A stretch of 64,000 nucleotides of DNA, from positions 81,140,644 to 81,204,643 of the forward strand of contig NC_088295.1 in assembly GCF_032854445.1 (NCBI RefSeq), in the 5' to 3' direction. The notes beneath the pieces were generated by a model. The model was not told where the DNA came from. It saw only the letters and a program-made list of their open reading frames with translations, and did no database searches. Both the position numbers and the translations under genes were made by a program. Of this stretch, positions 8,336 through 64,000 are shown in pieces; the first letter of the stretch is position 1; the number at the start of each line of letters is the position of its first letter. This DNA is from Liolophura sinensis. Lineage: Eukaryota; Mollusca; Polyplacophora; Chitonida; Chitonidae.

Positions 8336-9234
8336 GCAAGCAGTATTTGGCTATGACTGAGAAGGATGGCAATTTAATAGATGATCCAGCTAAAATTTTC
8401 CATATTTTCAATACTTTCTTCTCAACTGTCCCCATTCTTTAATAGATATTAATAATATAAACAAGGACAATTTTGTTCAAAGTCTTGAAAAACTCAGGGA
8501 ACAAGTTGAGGGAAAAGTTCTTCATGATACTTTTTACTCCATACCAAATATGTTGTATGTTTCTGTTTTACAATACCTTTTAAGGCTTGATAAAGATAAG
8601 GCTAGTGATCTGGACAATGTCAATTCTAAATTTCTTTCATCATCTGCCCCTATTATTGCAAAATCTTTTACCATGCTAATAAACAAATGTGTTATGACCA
8701 GACATGGTTATCCCTCTTCACAAAAGGGGTTCAAAGTTGAAAACTATCATCCAATATCTGTCCTACTCAGTTTTTCAAAAATCACTGAACGACATTTACA
8801 TAACTGTTTATACGAGTATCTCTCAAATTTTAAATTATTGAGCAAAAATAAATGTGGTTTTTGCCCCTCTTACGCTCTTGTGGAACTGTATTGCTGAAAA
8901 TGGTTGAACACTGGTTTACGGCGACAGATAACACTGAAGTTATTGGAACTGTACCTGTAGACTTCAAGCAGGCATTTGATACTGTTAATCACAATATATT
9001 ACTTAAAAAACTTAAAGCATACAAATTCACTCAACTGCTCTTACATTCTTCCAGTGATACCTATCTAACACACAACAAATGGTTGTTTGTGGAGGAGAAA
9101 TGTATAATGCTAAGGATATTAAAGCCAGTGTCTTGCAAGGCTGGCTCCATATTGCAGCCTTTACTTTTTATACTATACATAAATGATCTACCATTATTTC
9201 TAAAGAACAATTTTATTATTTCTAATTATTTCTA
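8336..9234 (+). pseudogene. decayed non-LTR retrotransposon reverse transcriptase
   Basis: Translated pieces in shifting frames follow the usual LINE reverse-transcriptase order. A pre-RT 'DGNLIDDPAKIFHIFNTFFS' segment (about 8368-8430) is followed by a KA-DLD--N-KFL motif (about 8595), ENYHPISVL (about 8740), VDFKQAFDTVNH (about 8960) and QPLLFILYINDLP (about 9155). The frame changes near 8430 and 8870. The text just past YINDLP, where the FADD-type catalytic aspartates normally follow, is lost. It is a dead fragment of a Jockey/CR1-like clade element; the exact clade is uncertain. The endonuclease domain and 3' end were not found. Confidence 0.8.
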
Positions 9235-9239
9235 AAGGG

Positions 9240-46635: not shown

Positions 46636-48297
46636 CTGTGAACGTAACTTTGAATTCTTGATATACATACAAATATTTGATTACTTACATTTGTATAAAC
46701 AGATATAAAAATTAAAAACACATATGGACATATATTTCTGCATTAATTCACGCACATGCCTGTACACGAATGTACAGGTACGATGCCATGGTTATATACA
46801 GTCCCAGATTTGGCCAAAACCTACATGTGTATGAAACTTTGTCGGCCTATGCCAAACGTCAGTGGTGCCCAAAACGTTTTAGCAACTGGCTTTGCCTTGT
46901 TAATCATTAATGGGCAATTAATTGTGACCAATACATTATATAATATCAGAACCAATGCGGTAGATGTGAGTTCAAGTTTAGATCATGCTGGCTTCCTCCC
47001 CAACCGTACGTGGGAAATTCTGTCAGCAGCCTGCGGATAGTCGTGGGTTTCCTCCGGGCTGAGCCCGGTTTCCTCCACCATAAGGCTTGACGTCGTATGA
47101 GGGAAATATTCTTGAGTACGGCGTAAAACACAAACCAAACAAATAAATGAATTGTGATCGTGATTAGGAAGATAATATGTTTATTCACATATAAGTTTAT
47201 GACAACATATCAGGAGGTGCACGAGACTCAGAAAGGCTATATCTGTATAGCTCATCGGTCAAGAGCCCTGCATGCACGCATTCGTGCAAGACAGGCAGGG
47301 GTATTTCGTGCAATGCCCTTCTTTCACAAGATCGACTGTATAATACAGAATTAAGTTAAGTGTGACATATATTTAACTGAATTATCAATATGAACATTTG
47401 AAATGATTACATATATTTTACTTAGAAATTGGTTTCCGTTTCTGCACGCCACTTGAAGTGTAAATTTAGTCATTAAGGTGGATATAGGCCTATATGTAAG
47501 GAAAGTCTGTTCAACATCTAAATTCTCGCCCTTAGTGATTCCTGTCAACATGAGACCAGGCCTATACAATGCATCGTTCCTTACTTTTGAATAGTAATTA
47601 GAACTAGCCAAATGTTACGGGAATCGGACGAAAGTACTATCCCAATCTGATGTAGCCTATAGGCCAACAGTACTCGTGGTCTAGTGGTAGGCTAACTTCC
47701 CATACGTCAGTTGGATCATGCGTCGGGACAAGGTGCTGGCCAAGCCCTGGCAGATCTGTGTTTTAATTATACTACGCGATTAATAACCATCTCTTATAGC
47801 AAATATCAGCAAATTTAGTGAATCGTACGTAAAGTAACCAAAATGTACACTATCAGTGGAATAATATATTTCACTTTGGTGCAATATAGTATAACCACTT
47901 TGATTTCCACAGTGGTGCAATATATACTATTTGTATTTTTACAGGAAACCAGGGGAATTTTATAAAAGAGTAACTAGCCATTTTTCTTTGTTTTAGACCT
48001 GCTTGAAAAAAAAAAAAATCCTGTGCTTTCCAAGAGGGAGGTGGGCTCTTTCACTATCATCAAATAAACCTTTCTCGACTGCATCTTTTTATTTTCTTAT
48101 ATATTGTAGGCTTGAACAGGCTATTTCTTTTGAAGAGTGGCCTACACCTTGCAGGGAACTGTTATGAAACCTGAGCAGAGGGTATCATGTCGGTAGGGTA
48201 CAGCTGTTATGCATCATTCAGCGCCATCGCAAGGGAAAGCAAGCTTACCGTATTGACACAAATCACTACTTTCGCTAGGGCATCCCTGTGGTCAGGT
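46633..48297. other. upstream region of GPD1 copy 1
   Basis: Apart from the SINE at 46951-47150, I see no gene. The GPD1 promoter must be at the right end; no clear core element is visible. Confidence 0.4.
46951..47150 (+). mobile_element. 5'-truncated Meta-type SINE
   Basis: Starts at ACCAATGCGGTAGATGTGAG (just before box B). It continues through CATGCTGGCTTCCTCCCC and GAAATATTCTTGAGTACGGC and ends AAACACAAACCAAACAAAT. The start point is nearly the same as in the copy at 48805. Confidence 0.85.
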
Positions 48298-48324
48298 TGA
48301 GCAGCGTTGGCGTTGTTTTCGAGC

Positions 48325-48477
48325 ATGTTTAACACTCGTACATTTCTGTTTAATTTGTCGTCTGCTCACAAGGTGGCGTACCGGGGCTTATTACCGATAA
48401 CATTGGCAAGGTCATTGAAAACGGGCCAAGTATGGGCTAGCGAAGTTCACAGAAAGTTGACGTGGAGAAGCTTGAAC
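48325..48477 (+). other. N-terminal extension of GPD1 copy 1, mitochondrial-presequence-like
   Basis: Fifty-one codons before [14 protein letters not shown]. The first 39 residues contain several Arg/Lys, many Ser/Thr/Leu and no acidic residue ([20 protein letters not shown], then [14 protein letters not shown]), as in mitochondrial targeting peptides. Both ATGs have A at -3, and the second also has G at +4, so leaky scanning could make both forms. It could instead be untranslated leader that happens to be open. Confidence 0.5.
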
Positions 48478-51400
48478 ATGGGTGGGAAAAAAGTTTGCAT
48501 CGTTGGATCGGGAAACTGGTGGGTGTTGTGTGGTGTATTTGATCCAAATTATCGTGCTGATCAGGACTGTTGTTGTTGTAACAGTGTCATGACACTTTGA
48601 AGACCGGAGTAGGCCTATTCCCGGCGCAGCGCCGGTAGCAAGTAAATGCTTCATTTAGCATCTAACAATGGATTGCGCTAATTTTGTCATTGGCAGCTAA
48701 GATTTTGTCCTGCATTAATCATAACATTAAGTTCACAGTCTCAAGGAAGAACAAAAGTTACATGTACATCATAATGATTACTATCAACTTGCAAACCCTA
48801 AAACCAATGCGGTCGCTGTGAGTTCAAGTCCAGCTCATGCTGGCTTCCTCTCCGGCCGTACGTGGGAAGGTTTGTCAGCAACCTGCGGATGGTCGTGGGT
48901 TTGCCCCGGGCTGTGCCCGGTTTCCACCCACCATAATGCTGGCCGCCGTCGTATAAGTGAAATATTCTTGAGTATGGCGTAAAACACCAATCAAATAAAT
49001 AAATAAATGCATACCCTAAAACATTGTTAAACTTATATCACTGATATTAGTTAATGCTTGCATATGATATAGGGCTATATGTTTCTGCACAAACATAGCT
49101 CAATATGTAAGTATTGACGTACCCTGCAGTTCATGGTTCTCAGTGTGCTGCCCTCAACATACTGTTGTGGTTGATGTGTTGCATGATGTGGTTATCAGCA
49201 ATCCCTGCATGTCCATTTCTACGTCCGATGTGTGTCAGTTTAGTGATATGATTTACCTTGCAAGTGTGCACTCGACCAAAAAGTCAAAATCTCTGTCATG
49301 TCAAACATGGCGATTGAGCAGGTTAGCCACATCAAACACACAAAATGTAGTGTTGCACAGGATAAGGCTATGGATTACCAGTCTGTATTGCCAGTGCAGG
49401 TGGAAATGCCTGGACAAACATCAAATGCAACATCTGAAAACTTAGACTTGGAAGTCAGTCATGTCAGTGCCATAAATCGGAACTTCAACATCATCGTCGG
49501 TGGGTTCAGATTGATACGGCAGTATATTTGCTTGATAGGACGGCCAACTGCGGATGGGCTAGAGCAGTAAATGTGTTGTTTCTGCTATATTTAGAGTCAT
49601 TTTTATGTTTCTCAGAAGCACTCTCAGTAATATACTGTTTAAACAGGTTATAATCTTTATAATTATGACCAGCAGGAAATCTGGACACTAAGCCTTTAAG
49701 TTAATTGCTGGCTGCATTAATACTATTTATGTATTCATCTATGCAGGGGCTCAGCTATTGCAAAGATTGTTGGCCAGAACGTGTTGGACAAGGGTGATAC
49801 ATTTGACAAGACTGTAAAAATGTACATGTACCAGGAAATGTACAATGATGAAAAATTAACTGAGATCTTCAACAGAGAACATGAAAATGTGAAATATCTT
49901 CCCGGTGTCAAAGTGCCAGACAGTGTGGTAAGAAAATAGAAGTACTGTAACTTATAAGCACGTTTTCTGAAAGCACGTTGACGAAATTGCATCCCAAAAT
50001 TTCTTGATGAAAAAAGCCATTCTACCATATTGTGGTATAAATGAGGTTGGGAGGGCTATAAACTTTGAAATGAGTTAAAATGTAGTATTTAATGTGGAAA
50101 TTCATTCAAATTAATATTATATAAATGTCGTGGAATATGACGTGCATCTATTATTTAAGATGAGCAATATGGTATTGTGTTGCTTAAATTACATGTACCA
50201 AGATTCACCTTTTACGTCACATTATGGTTTGTTTTATTTTATTTTTCCTTTTTACAGATAGCAGTGCCTGATTTATTGGAAACTGTAAAGGATGCAGACA
50301 TATTCATCTTTGTTGTCCCTCATCAATTTGTTCGTAAACTTTGTGAAGAGATGAAAGGACACATCAAGAAGGATGCAATAGCTGTATCCATGATTAAGGT
50401 ATATACAAGTTATCTAATTGCCTGGATCAACTGGCCCATGTTTGTCCCAGAAATACTTTAAAGATGTAAACATTTAGGATGAAATATTTGTGTGGACTGT
50501 TTACCATGTTCTTGTGTGAGATTTACGTGTTTTGTTAAATATCCACTGGCCTGTGATGGGAAAAGAAAACATGAAATTATTAAGTGGTTGAGTGAGTCAA
50601 ACCTAAGACTTCAGGTCAAATCAGGACTCAGCAACATAAATGGAAAGGCTAATTATCCCTCCACAGGTGACACATTTTAAAGCATTGTGATATGACTGAA
50701 ACATTGTGACTTTTCCTCAAGCATGCAAATAAGCCAACAGTATTGTCTCCATACAAAATAATTCATGCAAGTACAACAAGCCCCAAATACGAAGTTACAA
50801 AATTTTATCTCTTCAAATATTCACTTATTGTGCCCACTCAACTGAAATATCCTGCTTATTGTGAATGGTTTCATGTAAAGCATCATTAGTTATGTTTAGC
50901 TTTATGTTTTAGATTTGGATGTGACCCAAAGTAGAACAGTCTTAGGGTTATAATAAATCTCTTTTGGTGTTGGTAGGCATACATGTATGTGCTCTCGTCT
51001 GATCATGATGATTGTCATAAGCAGGTCTCTTTGTGTACAAGTGTTAATTGTGGGTTTAAATTTTCAGGGTTTTGAACAAGCAGAAAAGGGCATTCGACTG
51101 ATCTCTCACTCAATATCAGACCTTCTGCAAATAGAATGTGGTGTTTTAATGGGAGCTAACCTAGCCCCTGAAGTAGCTAGTGAACAGTTCTGTGAAACCA
51201 CAATTGGTAAGCATATAGAGGTTAGAAATTTTGATTTGCTGCAAATAACATATACCTGGTACAATGTACCTATCCATTTTGCTCAGGGTATGTAAAGTTA
51301 CTACTGGTGATTTTGTCCAGGAGACAGAAGTGTAACATTCCTAAATGTATGCTAATTGTCGGATAATAATTCTGCAAAAGAGCAGCTGGCTGTTATTTCT

Positions 51401-53967
51401 GTATTTACATGTATGTACAGTACAGTTTAAGTGGTTACTTTGTAAATTTTTTTTTTGTCTTTGTTTTTTTATCTACATAGGCACAAGAAATACTGAAAAT
51501 GGAAAGGTGTTAAAAGTGTTATTTGAAACCCCATACTTCAGGTGTTCTGTTGTGGAAGACCAAGACACAGTGGAGATGTGTGGTGCCCTCAAGGCTAGTA
51601 CATCATTAAGTCAACTACTTATTGATGTGTAGCATGAACAAAACCTTATTTGATTGTTGTTTGATGCCATTGGTTAACATACTTGTTTTTCTTGTGATAA
51701 TGTAACTGCTCTAAAGGCGTGTCCACTAAGTTTACATTTGAAGTTATATCTGATACATGTATTACATGCTTGTATTTAAACGTGTTTTCTATCCCAAATT
51801 CATTATGTTTAACGTATGTTTACTTTGAATATCTTCGCGCAGAATGTAGTTGCTATTGGAGCTGGCATTGTAGATGGGTTAGGCTGTGGGGACAACACCA
51901 AAGCAGCTGTCCTCCGACTTGGTCTCATGGAAATGGTAAAATTTGGAGAGAAATACTTTCCAGGTAACTGTATACTTAGTAAGCCTTGTATCTGTGAGAA
52001 AATTTTACTAGTGTAATGCATTCTAAAATATAAAGTTATGTCATTGGTTTTGGCACAGTTGAGGACATTAGAAGAGTTATCTCCCCTTAATTTAATAGCT
52101 GAAATTGTTTTTTGGTTTCTTTTTTGTGTCTGGAAGTGTAACATTCGTTTGACTGCAGTGCAGTGAAATCATTCGGAACTTGAAACATGGAATGTTTGAT
52201 TCAATTTCTGCCTACAATCAAAAATTACAAATGGCTGACATTCACTCCTTGCTGTATAGTGTGTGATGAGTAGATAAGAGCTCCTGTGGCATGTATCAAA
52301 CATATCAAATATGAACAATAAAATACATTAAAAAAATAGAAAGTAATTTAGGTAGCAACTGGGTGAACTCCATTTGAGATCTGACGTCTTGACCTAAATC
52401 TGCTTAAAGGTGATTACCACAAAAACTCATTCCTACTACTTATGGAATTTAGTGTACCATCTGCACATTTCATTGTACATCTGCACATGTACTGCACACT
52501 TGTTGTAGTGAAAAATGTAAGATACTAAATATGCTGTACATTCCCGAAACCATTGTTGTGGTGTTGACAGGATCTAAGATGACTACCTTTTTTGAGAGCT
52601 GTGGAGTGGCTGACTTGGTGGCCACATGCCATGGAGGCAGGAACCGGGCTCTGGGGGAAGCTGTTGTCAAGACCGGAAAGGTAACATCATACATTGTTAC
52701 ATGCACTTATCATTCTGTTTTTCTCCCATCAGTTTCATTCAAGGCAAGGGTTTACTTTCACCTTGTATTTCATTTGCAATATTTGAGGGTATTTTTGATA
52801 TATTCTGCTTCACTATCAACTGCAGGCTTTTTGAAAATATACATATTTAATAGTTATATTTAAGGCCAGGTGAATGTCAGGTTTTTCTTCTTTGATGAAA
52901 GTGTTATTTTACATGTTAGACGTCACTTTTCTCACTAGATTTTGACACTTCACACCCAGACGCACAACGATAAAAAAGAAAATTTTGTTTTATTACTTTC
53001 AGTCAGAGCTCAGTGGGATGATGTCTTAATACAGGTTTAGTTAATTTAAGAGGACGTATACATTGTGCAACATCATGTCCTACAAGATGTCCTGTACGAT
53101 ATCATGCCACATATCATGTCTATGAAGGCCTACATCTAAAACTTTCAAATTCACAATCAGCAATAATGTCAAAATATAAATATAACCACAAACAAATCCT
53201 GATGACTCAGCTTGAAGTACACGGTTGTGCACCCCTCCCCCCCCCCCCCACTCCCTACCTCAATACAGTGAATTGAACTAGAACATGAATGCCAGCAGTT
53301 AGTTTTTATCCTCCTGTTGTAGCACACCTCATAGCTACTTAATCGCTGAAAACAGTGACATGAAGGCATTCATAGTTTCTCCGTTTTGATTGTAATTGTT
53401 GTAAATCTACTCTGTTGTCTTGTTTGCAGACAATCCAGGAATTAGAGAAGGAGATTTTACATGGTCAGAGCTTTCAGGGGCCATTGGTGGCAAGAGAAAT
53501 AAATACAATGCTCAAGGAAAGTAACTTGGAGGAAAGGTGGGTGACAAATACATGTATTCCGTACACGTGAAGAATATCCTAGTTTTAAACCATGTACTGT
53601 ATTTTGGCCTGATCAGTTATTTGACCTAATAATTTGCCCCAAACAAGCAAATAAAATGTTATTTGTCGTGCTGAAACATTTCCAGTCAGATATCATCCTG
53701 CCTTCCAAAAAACCTTATTACGAAGAGTGGTATCAGACAAAATGAGTTACTTAGTCATGAGCGAAATTTGAGGTTAAATACTGTATTCAATATTTTGTGA
53801 ACCATGTTATTGATGCACATATAATATGATTTAATCTTGATATAATTTTCTCTTGGTTTTGTCATTTCAGCTTTCCTCTCTTTACAGCAATCCATAAAAT
53901 TTGTGCACGAATAATTGATCCAAAAGAGTTCATCCCTTGCTTACGTGATCATCCAGAACACCTTTAA
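48325..53967 (+). CDS. GPD1: NAD-dependent glycerol-3-phosphate dehydrogenase, copy 1
   Basis: Interconverts dihydroxyacetone phosphate + NADH and glycerol-3-phosphate, feeding lipid synthesis and the glycerophosphate shuttle. Nine exons: 48325-48518, 49747-49927, 50258-50398, 51068-51206, 51481-51593, 51843-51963, 52571-52680, 53430-53536, 53871-53967, with phases consistent. From the ATG at 48478 the product is 349 residues, exactly the usual GPD1 size. From the ATG at 48325, just after an in-frame TGA at 48298, it is 400 residues. Motifs, in short-form numbering: GSGNWG nucleotide loop (10-15), [50 protein letters not shown] with the substrate/catalytic lysine, CHGGRNR, and the ending LRDHPEHL. 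Intron 5 has a GC donor (AAG/GCTAGT). Neighbouring copy 2 shares exon borders. Confidence 0.96.
48805..49008 (+). mobile_element. 5'-truncated Meta-type SINE with target duplication in GPD1 intron 1
   Basis: Starts at CAATGCGGTCGCTGTGAGTT and is otherwise intact to AAACACCAATCAAATAAATA. Flanks GCAAACCCTAAAAC (48791-48804) and GCATACCCTAAAAC (49009-49022) differ at one base in 14. It is one of the best preserved copies in the window and serves as a reference for the family. Confidence 0.92.
49340..49510 (+). repeat. duplicated segment B (partner 45660-45830)
   Basis: Within GPD1 copy 1 intron 1. It lies in a 90-codon open frame (49298-49570) that resembles no protein I know. The partner copy has stops in that frame, so the openness is probably chance or a remnant of a transposon frame. 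Confidence 0.6.
51593..51842 (+). other. GC-AG intron of GPD1 copy 1 (intron 5)
   Basis: The coding match requires exon 5 to end CTCAAG at 51593 and exon 6 to start AATGTAGTTGC at 51843 ([12 protein letters not shown], an invariant junction). The donor is then GCTAGT and the acceptor TCTTCGCGCAG. No GT donor nearby keeps both the frame and the conserved residues. Confidence 0.88.
53231..53251 (+). repeat. C-rich tract
   Basis: CCCCTCCCCCCCCCCCCC-type run in GPD1 copy 1 intron 7, a low-complexity tract. Confidence 0.8.
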
Positions 53968-57343: not shown

Positions 57344-60300
57344 ATGTCCGATAAGAAGAAAATTTGCATTGTCGGATCTGGGAATTGGTAAGTGCAGGCC
57401 TGAGGGATGCGTTGGGTTAAAGACACTGATGCGTGCAAGTCGAACAAATCAAGTCTCCCGTGGACTTACCACAATTCACACACTCACAGTTGAGAAGTTG
57501 TTTCGTGTGCTTTCGACTGACCTGTAAAACCGTGCCTCCCATTCACTGTCGACTTATTTCGTCGATTGAATAAGGACTGCATGTTTGCCTAGTTACTGTG
57601 TTTGTCCGCATAAAAGAACGGGAGGCTGGTCTAAGGTAAGCTGCTGAGCTAGCTTACATAGAATAACCCGGGGACGGTGATCGCTTGCCTGACTCTACAT
57701 CCCGTAAGCGGGCTAGCAAGGGTAGCTCGGTGTACTACTACACGCATGTCTTGGACATCCCCACACTGGTGTAGCTGGAGAGAGAGCACAGTAAACGACG
57801 TGGCAGAGTGTACGTAGATTACCGACGGACGGCCTCAATACTCGACTGTTGTACGCATTAAATGTATCATTCTCAGACATTTATATCTATTAGACCTATC
57901 CAAGCTCCATGATGAGATAAAACTTGCGGAGTCATTTTTTTTTCTTTTTACGAACAATTTCTGACAATTTTTATTTCCAACGTTTAATACTCAACATGAA
58001 AAATCCTGTTAGAGCCCTCCCAAATGGTTGAACATAAAACCACCTTGTAGACAAGAGCAGGATTGTTCAAAACTGGTGTAAGACTTCATACCAAATTTAA
58101 CTTTAAGCCAAGTCTTCAGTTTTGTGTTTAGCCCCAAAAAGCACATACGCATATACCAAGATACGCAGCCTCGATTTCGAAAAGGCTTGTTAACAAACCA
58201 GCTCGGCCGATCTCTTAATATTAGAGCAAGTACACTGCTGATGGTGCTTTCCTGTTTTTCAAGTTATTTGCATCATAGCACCTGTTTATCTTAGGCATGT
58301 TCAGTTTAGTGAATGTAGAGACGTGGAAGATATAAAAAATGACCCAAGAAAATTAAAGACAATATTATTAATATTATTCTTCCTTTTTTTGACTGGAAAT
58401 GTGCTTTGGACTTAAATGACGCTTGGGACGTGTCATCAGTACGGATTTTGAACACAGCTAAACTTAAATTGAGCTGTCACTCGTACAATACCACTTCATA
58501 ATGTACAGAATACTTCCAAACAACCTATTTGTTATATCGCTCAACCTGTTCAAGGACTTCCATATCCTGTACAAAATCCAATATCGATCGAAGACACACA
58601 TACAGGTTCAGCTGGCCTGGAGGAAGTTTTTGGGTCTCCTTGTTCGTGTTAGGCAATACACTTTGTATCCAGCGCTTGAATATTCCTTAATCGGTTATAG
58701 ATCTTAACTTTAGTATTTCAGGGAATTTGAAAATCATCAAACAATGAAATTTATTCGGAGGTTTATATGTGGTCGTCAATGTTTACAGAAAGGCGGAGAG
58801 AGAACGATAAACACGTACTGCCACTGTGCCCCTAAATGCTTTCATTTTATGAAGTTACCTCCCTTTGCTTCTGCACAGTATTAAAAACATGGTTCTCCAG
58901 AATCCAGTAGCACTTCAAGAGTAGAATGATCACTTGGTACGATCAAACTTATTTCATCGGACCATTATAGCTACCCATATATAATACTTCATTGTTTTGT
59001 ACACAGACGAGCAGCAGTATATACGTACCAGTATTGTACATATAGTCAGCTTACAAGTTCGTACCACTGTGCAAACATTGTTGTGTTAAAAAATTAAATT
59101 TACGTATAAAAGAAGCATGATCATGGATGGTTAGTTGTGTATATAATTCTACTCTGATTAATTTAAGTAAAAAATAAGCACATAAATTTTCATGTGTAAG
59201 TCAGTGTTTTCTATACAGGACGCATTAAAAGTTGTGAAAAAAATGTTTGCACTAATTTTTTTTCATTTGCTGTGTCATATTCATTTTAAAATGTTCCAAA
59301 TTCTTTTGCTAAATGCTATATGTAGAAAAGCTTTGATACACATGCAGTTGCAACAAAATATTGAAGAGCTGTATGATACATAGACCTATAGCCTACACAC
59401 CTATGTATATCAAGGTTGTTGGAAATTACATTGAACACCTTGAAGTCTCATTTTCCAAACATCTGAAGTATTTTGTATTGCGTTCACGTTATTGACAGCT
59501 ATGTGTACAGATTAAATGTACATGTAGATTTTGTACATGCACTGTAAGCCTGCGGACCAGTAACCTATTGCATGATTTCATGAAACATGGAAATATTCAA
59601 CCATGCTTGCTTTATTGTGCATTTTTGGGATCTATCAGTTTTCTTCATTTGCTAAACTAAATATATGTTTAAGAATAATGAGAAATATGGAGTAAATAAT
59701 ACTAAAAACAGTGTAAAACCAGTGCCTGTGGGATTGTTGTAATGATAAGATATACACAAGTGGAATGTTTTTTGGAAAGCAAGGCTTCTTATGTAGGTAG
59801 AAGTGCCTGTGTGAGATTGTGAGGTGGGTTATTTCCAATTCGTACAAAATGGCTTTGAAAAAAAAAAAAGCAAATGATGAAGTGATGAGTTAATCATTGT
59901 CTTCATCAATAAAGCTCAGTTTGTCACCCCCTTGCAAAGAAGTGTATTAGACTCATACTAATAATAAATTAAAGTACCTTGCAGAAAGTTAAATTTAAAT
60001 AGGTAAGGCAGATATTCTTGTCAGCCATGTTGCACGGAGAACAAGTCAGAAATTCAACTGTTTCAAAACGTCGGCTGGTAACAGCATTGCTTTGGCCTGA
60101 CTCGGTAGTGGGGAAATCACTGATGAGAATCAGTAACATTGAAATTTGCTTTTACTCATGCACCAAATGTATGGTGGTGTGGCGATACTCTAGACATATG
60201 CAGTTATTGAGAGGTCGCCTAGCTACAACAGTACAGAAGAGTCCGTCAGAATTTATAAAACATGGTCATTTAGCAAGAACTTAACTTGAATCTGTGAAGG

Positions 60301-63300
60301 CTGAAGTACAGTTTATGTATATGTATATGAAGATCATTGTTGGTCCAATGTGATTGATTTTGGTGGATGTGAGAGAAAGTTTGAAAAAGCCAAGGGTAAA
60401 AGCACTGACAAATAACGTGAAAAAAAGGGACCCCATGTTGGCTGAGGGCCAAGTAAGTAAACTTTTCACCGGTTGTGTTTATTCTTTTGCACTGGATATT
60501 TTTTGAGGCATTGTTGGGTTTATTTGTTAAACATTGCATAACCAGATGACTTAATGAAGTCAATGAAAGTACTGGAGATTTGGAAATTTTCCAACATCAG
60601 TTGTTTTTACAGGAACTTGTTTACAAAGAGCAGTTCATTATAAACTGTAACCTTCATGGTTAAACCCTTTTGACCCATTACATGTAGATGGGGCAGTTGT
60701 AAATCTTTGGGAGTGGGAGTGGTTGTGGAGTTTGTATAGAAATGTCTTTGGTGAAATTCATACTTGATAGACAAAAAATAAAGTATTAGCCAAGTTGGAG
60801 AAACTCAATTTTGAACTGAGAATTTTAGATACATGTAGGTGTTTTTCAACTTGATTCATTTCATTGGTAGGCACTGTATAGCTTTAAACCTACAGCTGAA
60901 GGAGTTGAAATATTCTTTCCATGTGAAAGTTAATTTTTTTTTTGCCTGCCCATTCATGTTTTCCATTTTTGATTGATGACTTCTGCCATAGTAAGAATCT
61001 TTCACTTAAATGCATTGTTAGGTAGGCAAGCATCTTGTTGGATTGAATGGGTAATTTCAGATTCATTAGTCACTCAGAAATTATCTTTTAATTTCTGTGG
61101 AGAAGTTAGAACCTAACGCCTATTATTTCAACCAGCTTACTTAGGCGCTATTACGTCCCCATTATTTGCTGTGTGTGATAATTCAGAATCCGTTGAATGC
61201 ATTGCCTTCACAGATGTTTAAATAACATGACATTTCATTACTGGCCTGAAGCCTAAAACAAAAAGCTGTAAGCTTTCCTCTACACCACACAAGACCTCTA
61301 CACCACATATTAGGCCCACCTTAGAACCCAAACATTCAAGTTCACTTGCTAGTTTTAGGTTTTTGACATTGCCATGCTGCAGCAGCTGGGTCCAGTATTT
61401 ACTCTGCCTTCAGTTGGTTGAGGGGATTATCAATGTAACTGTCACTACTGGATGTGGATATGTTGAAAACAATACAGGACTCTTAAACCTCTTTCATTCT
61501 GGACAAGGGTTACAAATCAGTCGGCATGAATCAGCCATTTTAAATGGTGTGAGGTTGTAATGACTAACAGTAGGTTGTAATGCATGTGCTACATAAACTT
61601 ACATCATAAATCTGGGGTGAACAAACTTACATGTGACAGTACATTGCAAATTGTATATTTTCTGCTGTATATATAGATTCATTCTCTAGCAATTGTTTTG
61701 ACATGGAAAACCTATATTTACACAGTCTAGACTTTAGTCAGTGTACAGTGTGTGGTTAAATTGTGGAGCTACATGTAGAACTCATTACTGACCTCCTTTT
61801 TTGTTTGCCTAGGAGCACCTGGAAGAAGGGAAAACTGACCCAGTTCAGGCCATTCTACATGTATATATGGAAGTGTTAAACTTAACTATAGGGCCAGCAT
61901 TGATCGTCCTTACAGCACTGGGGCTGAGCTTTAGACTTGAGTCTAAACATTGCTGTCTCAGTTACAACTCTGTACACTGTTCTGATATTTAAAAATAACC
62001 CATGCTATGTACTGCCTACTTACATGTACATAAGATAGATCTGTTTCACTCTTTTAAATGGATTCATGTACCATATTGCCACTTAAATGTCATGTCACCA
62101 AGGGTGCAAAATAAAATATTGACAATTTGTACTTGTTTCAGGGGATCAGCAATAGCAAAAATTATTGGAAATAATGTGAAGGACCCAGAATTGTCTAAAA
62201 AGTTCCAGGAAGAAGTGTGTATGTATGTGTATGAGGAGATGGTAAATGGAAAGAAACTAACAGAAATCATCAACAACGACCACGAGAATGTCAAGTACTT
62301 GCCCGGTCACAAGTTACCAGAGAATGTGGTAATTGCAGGCTGTTGACAAAAATGATTAAAGAAGGCCAGAGAAGTTCATAACCCAGTGAGCCTCTCAGAG
62401 AGATCAGTTGGGGACTTTAGGAAATTCGAAATGGTCAGCGAACATCCAGTTGTTTTCACTTATTTAAATTTAGATTCAAACCTTGGCAACCTGGAATTCT
62501 AGTAGCCTGCAAGATTGGAGCATCTATTTTATCAGGCCTTATCATCGGGACTAAGGAGCAGATTATTTTTGTCCTTTAGAATAATCGAAGGGCTGGAGAC
62601 AAAAAATGGAGGTCCCAAAAATGTCAGTTTTTCTTAATGCTTGTGTTGTGTGCGGTTAAGGTAAACATAAAAGCCTTCTTTAAACATTATGTAAAAGTTA
62701 GATAGGTGTAACATAAGGATTTCTTTTGCATGTAAATAGTGTTTCCATACATGTATTTAACGTTCTTAAATTTCACTGTGTAAAGAGATCCATTATTGGC
62801 CAATGTAATGGTTTCTAGTCCCATAGGTGGTAACTGGCCATAATCTACTGAAGAACGGGTAAGTCCCCCAAAGTGGCCTAAGTGGAAGCATTTATGACAA
62901 CTAGTGCAAGATTCCAGTGGCAGTAGAGTGTGAAAGTTACATGTATGGAGTTTTTGACATCCTTTGTGGGGACTACCTACTTGGGAAACAAGGCGGCCAT
63001 ACAAACTGTTTAAGCCAGCACCTTAAATAACAATAGCAGGGACCAATCCTACTTCAGAAAGGGCTTTCAGTATTTCCAGACAAGGAGCACATTGAGTGAT
63101 GTGGTGTTTAATTACACAGAAACTTTTGTGCAGTTACTTCAGTTAAAGCTTAACAGGTTCCTCTCCTGAAATGATTATTGTCTAGAAAAACTAATTTTAG
63201 CCTGAAGGTCAGTGAAATGAGTTTAGGCTCAGTCATCTTAGGTGGCTCTCAGAAGCAGATGACCATTATAAATCACATCGTGGTATTTGTATTCTTTTGG

Positions 63301-63547
63301 TAGGTCAGCTCTTGCACAGCTCAGGAAGTCAACTAATGAGCACATATTATAGATTCTCTCCAATGAAAACAGGTGTAGTGATGCATTTTTTCTTTTTGTC
63401 ACACAGAAAGCTGTCCCTGATGTGAAGGAATCAGCCAAAGATGCAGATATTTTAATATTTGTTGTGCCTCATCAGTTTGTCAAAGGCATTTGTAAGCAGC
63501 TACAGGGAAGTGTGAAGTCAGGTGCCATTGCTGTATCTCTTATCAAG
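57344..63547 (+). CDS. GPD1: NAD-dependent glycerol-3-phosphate dehydrogenase, copy 2, partial (runs past window end)
   Basis: Exons 57344-57387, 62142-62328 and 63407-63547 encode residues 1-124. [20 protein letters not shown] has the nucleotide loop, followed by [19 protein letters not shown] and [20 protein letters not shown]. Intron positions and phases equal those of copy 1; exon 3 has the same 47 codons, and exon 2 is two codons longer. Over exon 3, 29 of 47 residues match copy 1, so the duplication is old. There is no upstream in-frame extension like that of copy 1, so this copy should be cytosolic. Intron 1 (57388-62141) is 4.75 kb with no SINE recognised. The rest of the gene, about 225 residues, lies beyond 64000. 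Confidence 0.94.
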
Positions 63548-64000
63548 GTTTGTGAACACACAGGGATCATGCCACTGGAAACTATGTACTATAAGTTTGC
63601 TAGCAGCATCGATGAATAAAACCTGCACTTTCATAAGCTATTGTCTGACAGTGTAGCAGATTTTTAGCAGATTTCCTGATTGTGTCATGTAGGAGAAAAC
63701 ATATAAGGCACATTTAAAATTGCTGGGACAAGGCAACCTACCTAAGCATTACATCTAAAAGTTTTGCAGACTGGCTCTTGCAGCTGGTCAAGGCGTACAT
63801 GCTCGCTCTTGTTTCTTGCTTATTCATTATGGATAGCTTATTTCATCCACGGGTGAAAAGGTCATTGGAGTTGAAAATAAGATGAAAACCAGAAGGCATA
63901 TATCAACTAATCTAGGAGGACTAGCTTTGGTTTCAGTGTAAAACACGTATAACATGATTTATGTCCTTCTACGTAAAGAAAAAAAAAGAATGTAGTGACT
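63548..64000 (+). other. intron 3 of GPD1 copy 2 (start)
   Basis: Begins with donor GTTTGTG after ATCAAG. The next exon is not reached before the window ends. Confidence 0.8.

Follow-up and report, generated by a model that had tools for sequence, protein, structure and literature searches.

A candidate mitochondrial presequence on one of two tandem GPD1 genes in the chiton Liolophura sinensis

Results

Analysis of a 64,000-nucleotide stretch of chiton DNA (C1:81140644-81204643, hereafter the window) revealed two tandem GPD1 genes, of which copy 1 has an open 51-codon extension in frame with an intact enzyme core, with one ATG at the head of the extension and another at the head of the core. 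Copy 2 has no such extension, and copy 1 has evolved faster. The extension resembles a mitochondrial presequence and is probably translated and used. We further propose, tentatively and at slightly below even confidence, that copy 1 is mainly or only a mitochondrial form and that copy 2 stays cytosolic.

Gene structure of the tandem pair

The spliced model of copy 1 had consistent exon phases (Table 1), and seven of its eight introns were GT-AG and one was GC-AG. The GC donor, which replaces GT, lies in the fifth intron at 51594-51595 (CTCAAG/gctagt). Translation of the spliced gene gave 349 residues from ATG 48478, the standard length given in the preliminary description, and 400 residues from ATG 48325. 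The core matched PF01210 (159.3 bits), PF07479 (148.7 bits) and TIGR03376 (481.2, with a cut-off of 285.5), each well above its threshold, and aligned across all 349 residues with the cytosolic, NAD-dependent mammalian GPD1 (PDB 1X0V/6E8Y), to which it was 57% identical. Copy 2 continued beyond the window, with its last exon about 7.75 kb past the window end. In a Pfam search of the whole genome assembly (609,464,459 bases in 632 contigs), GPD1 exons were found in this tandem pair only. Exon 1 of copy 1 was single copy at the DNA level, with no second copy or retrocopy that could mark the transcript start.

Table 1. Features of the tandem GPD1 pair, in window positions
Feature	Position	Strand	Remarks
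GPD1 copy 1, 9 exons	48325-53967	+	includes the extension if the first ATG is used
GPD1 copy 1 core, 349 aa	48478..53967	+	stop codon counted in
GPD1 copy 1 exons 1-5 (core)	48478-48518, 49747-49927, 50258-50398, 51068-51206, 51481-51593	+	
GPD1 copy 1 exons 6-9	51843-51963, 52571-52680, 53430-53536, 53871-53967 (with stop)	+	
GPD1 copy 1 exon 1, coding part from first ATG	48325..48518	+	GT donor at 48519
51-codon in-frame N-terminal extension, presequence-like	48325..48477	+	putatively translated
In-frame TGA, upstream bound of extension frame	48298..48300	+	
TCATTC, initiator-like (TCAKTY)	48214..48219	+	sole match in 47951-48480; about 0.5 expected by chance; weak
Out-of-frame two-codon ORF ATG GGC TAG, optimal context	48432..48440	+	between the two in-frame starts
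Canonical GPD1 start ATG	48478..48480	+	aacATGg (A at -3, G at +4); Met shared with copy 2 and with mammalian GPD1
GPD1 copy 2	57344..64000	+	exon 1 coding 57344-57387; without extension

Divergence of copy 1 from copy 2

Identity to mammalian GPD1 was 56.9% for copy 1 and 65.8% for copy 2, and a comparison of the two copies gave 63.3% identity. When mammalian GPD1 served as the outgroup, 48 changes were unique to copy 1 and 17 to copy 2 (relative-rate p = 1.2e-4), a difference in rate that the preliminary description had missed. Among the checked active-site residues, with roles assigned as in the human enzyme, copy 1 keeps W14, F97, K120, N151, K204, N205, D260, T264, R269, N270, Q295 and Q298. 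It differs from mammalian GPD1 by F41 to Y, a change also present in copy 2, by K296 to S, and by the possible 51-residue extension. This pattern suggests an active but diverged duplicate, as relocalisation predicts, and is insufficient alone to show relocalisation.

Upstream of the copy 2 start at ATG 57344, in-frame stops lie close by with no in-frame ATG between, and the paralogue lacks an extension, as had been described. One copy of the pair carries a candidate signal, itself putative, and has diverged, and the other carries none; this is the arrangement of a relocalised tandem duplicate.

Properties of the N-terminal extension

The extension codons share exon 1 with the canonical start, and no stop occurs between ATG 48325 and ATG 48478. 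The preliminary description was borne out in stating that the upstream ATG adds a basic stretch of 51 residues in frame, the first 39 free of acid: it includes eight K/R and a single acid, E40. It had placed an in-frame stop directly before ATG 48325, but the TGA lies 8 codons upstream. Residues 1-38 hold five K/R and an amphipathic stretch with a maximum helical moment of 0.48 (crude scores), which falls inside the range of 0.37-0.75 of seven vertebrate presequences taken as rough controls. On these crude scores, the extension has the basic, acid-poor and amphipathic N-terminal segment of a matrix precursor. An R-10 type MPP/Oct1 pattern, which is loose and present also at R48, was found at R29 (R29-S, then LKTGQVWA), and cleavage there would give a mature N-terminus at S39, just ahead of E40. 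Residues before the core are tolerated by the GPD fold, since yeast and Plasmodium GPD structures carry them (matches start at chain residues 36 and 20, respectively). When the extension protein was searched against its own genome, it had no match besides itself.

It is very improbable that the extension is translated but sends the enzyme to another site, such as the peroxisome or the secretory path, or forms an inert tail: N-terminal signals of different organelles look alike and yeast Gpd1 localises to peroxisomes, but the extension has no PTS2 pattern, and the C-terminus of copy 1, EHL, is not a PTS1, nor does readthrough of the stop produce one.

A 37-codon ORF at 48187-48300 shares the frame of the extension and ends at the TGA (MSVGYSCYASFSAIARESKLTVLTQITTFARASLWSG, then TGA). 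It is mildly basic and probably due to chance.

Frequency of such extensions by chance

Dinucleotide shuffling of 48100-48477 produced an in-frame ATG extension of at least 45 codons in 556 of 20,000 cases (2.8%); in the window itself, 70 of the 2,840 ATGs had one (2.5%). When a net charge and an acid-free run at least equal to those of copy 1 were added, 34 of 20,000 shuffles (0.17%) and 4 of 2,840 window ATGs (0.14%) qualified. ATGs in a strong context numbered 294 in the window; 34 of them had any extension of 20-100 codons, and that of copy 1 alone was presequence-like. The thresholds were picked post hoc and the candidate was chosen after a look at the whole window, both of which weaken these estimates; a realistic look-elsewhere chance is, by our judgement, nearer 1%. 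The extension is more than casual chance.

The main alternative is that the extension is part of the 5' leader or promoter that happens to be open and never yields a functional peptide, and that ordinary cytosolic GPD1 is made from copy 1 by reading from 48478. We regard this as a serious possibility, though below even. Its transcript would begin downstream of 48432, or the upstream ATGs would be tolerated. Lengths such as that of the extension do arise randomly at the frequencies above, and meaningless open frames do occur in this region, as the 37 open codons 5' of the TGA indicate; the presequence-like make-up is the rarer property and counts against a chance frame. The 349 residues from 48478 align end to end with mammalian GPD1, and the sole other GPD1 copy has no extension. 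The conservation of M52 with an optimal Kozak context is expected if 48478 is the genuine start. Synonymous codon usage, compared with that of 30 GPCR reading frames, lent no support to coding in the extension, in a test without power: it failed to separate coding from non-coding sequence here, and the real copy 1 core likewise scored as non-coding under one background. Reading from 48478 makes a further demand on the leader: either the 5' UTR must not exceed 45 nt, so as to escape the upstream ATGs, or initiation must occur beyond two of these, both having A at -3.

Start codons and the probable transcription start

ATGs in the leader occur at 48164, 48187, 48209, 48325, 48432 and 48478. A pyrimidine-rich possible splice acceptor was observed upstream of the starts at 48108-48109 (tttattttcttatatattgtag, followed by G after the junction), and a leader exon joined there would add the ATGs at 48164, 48187 and 48209 to the mRNA.

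The interval 48210-48324 contains no ATG, so a transcription start within it makes 48325 the first AUG. The ratio of observed to expected CpG rose from 0.18-0.46 at 47900-48100 to about 1.06 from 48200. The initiator-like TCATTC at 48214 adjoins this rise, and a transcript from it would meet 48325 as its first AUG. Both features agree weakly with a start in 48210-48324.

The preliminary description had judged both in-frame ATGs to have good contexts, and each does have A at -3; at +4, 48325 has T and only 48478 has G. It had also offered two explanations, a paralogue retargeted to mitochondria or one gene making both a mitochondrial and a cytosolic enzyme. The first fits best, given the standard N-terminus of copy 2, the faster evolution of copy 1 and an active site kept nearly entire. 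The second lost ground, as far as scanning is concerned, to the out-of-frame ATG 48432, which had been overlooked.

That copy 1 yields a mitochondrial form from 48325 and a cytosolic form from 48478 at similar levels, through two transcription starts or leaky scanning, is unlikely. Such an arrangement would accord with the A at -3 of both in-frame ATGs, with the additional G at +4 of the second and with the retention of M52 and its context. Alternative initiation gives dual products in animals, as in human ELAC2 (PMC3084753), which has two in-frame AUGs and a targeting sequence on the longer form. Unlike ELAC2, copy 1 has an optimal-context, out-of-frame AUG between its two starts. Dual products via leaky scanning are unlikely, since ribosomes past 48325 hit ATG 48432 before 48478; the ORF there ends after two codons, leaving 37 nt for reinitiation, and should trap leaking ribosomes. 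With ATG 48432 in between, a cytosolic form of copy 1 needs a second transcription start within 48433-48477. In addition, an enzyme of the standard cytosolic type is already available from copy 2.

We tentatively favor the relocalisation of copy 1. In the proposed mechanism, copy 1 would be the derived member of the tandem pair, and its main transcript probably begins 5' of 48325, so that 48325 would be the first AUG. Translation from it would give a 400-residue precursor, which may be imported into mitochondria and cleaved, and the usual cytosolic role would be carried by copy 2.

Discussion

In standard animal metabolism, NAD-linked GPD1 is cytosolic and only the FAD enzyme GPD2 is mitochondrial (PMC11148179). 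Our literature search found no report of an animal mitochondrial NAD-GPDH. The chiton pair raises the possibility, which we put at somewhat below even, of an NAD-dependent GPDH paralogue acting in the matrix of animal mitochondria beside the usual FAD enzyme. FAD-type GPD2 is present in the same genome, and so no metabolic gap to be filled is evident. Loss of GPD2 as the cause of retargeting was considered and rejected when GPD2-type DAO_C exons were found on C4.

Duplicates in animals commonly gain N-terminal targeting signals, and relocalisation is a known fate (PMC2790464). The chiton genes are similar to the pairs described there, in which animal duplicates are divided between mitochondria and cytosol, in that one duplicate has gained a candidate N-terminal signal; we found no description of the GPD1 family in this role in the literature. 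In Saccharomyces cerevisiae, Gpd2 is an NAD-GPDH with a mitochondrial location (Valadi 2004, as cited in PMC8124512). Copy 1 resembles yeast Gpd2 in being an NAD-GPDH that bears a mitochondrial N-terminal signal, here a candidate, and that has a paralogue located elsewhere. The chiton case differs in concerning an animal and in having an extension whose translation is putative and whose kinship with the yeast signal is hypothetical.

If the proposal is true, copy 1 would be a relocalised duplicate of a known kind, comparable in effect to yeast Gpd2 and unusual in an animal, and a clear example of a tandem duplicate retained through relocalisation. The glycerol-phosphate shuttle of chitons would then take a route other than the expected one. 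A role in glycerol-3-phosphate supply or NADH balance within mitochondria would be possible, as would redox exchange between DHAP and glycerol-3-phosphate in the matrix, perhaps linked to intertidal oxygen or osmotic stress.

Other features of the window

An element resembling a dispersed repeat was spotted by eye in two copies, at 48790-49015 and 46950-47150 (GAGTTCAAGT..CTGGCTTCCTC..CTGCGGAT.GTCGTGGGTTT), the former within intron 1 of GPD1 copy 1. An ORF at 8852-9235 weakly matched reverse transcriptase (PF00078, 27.3 bits, slightly below the cut-off) and is probably a transposon remnant.
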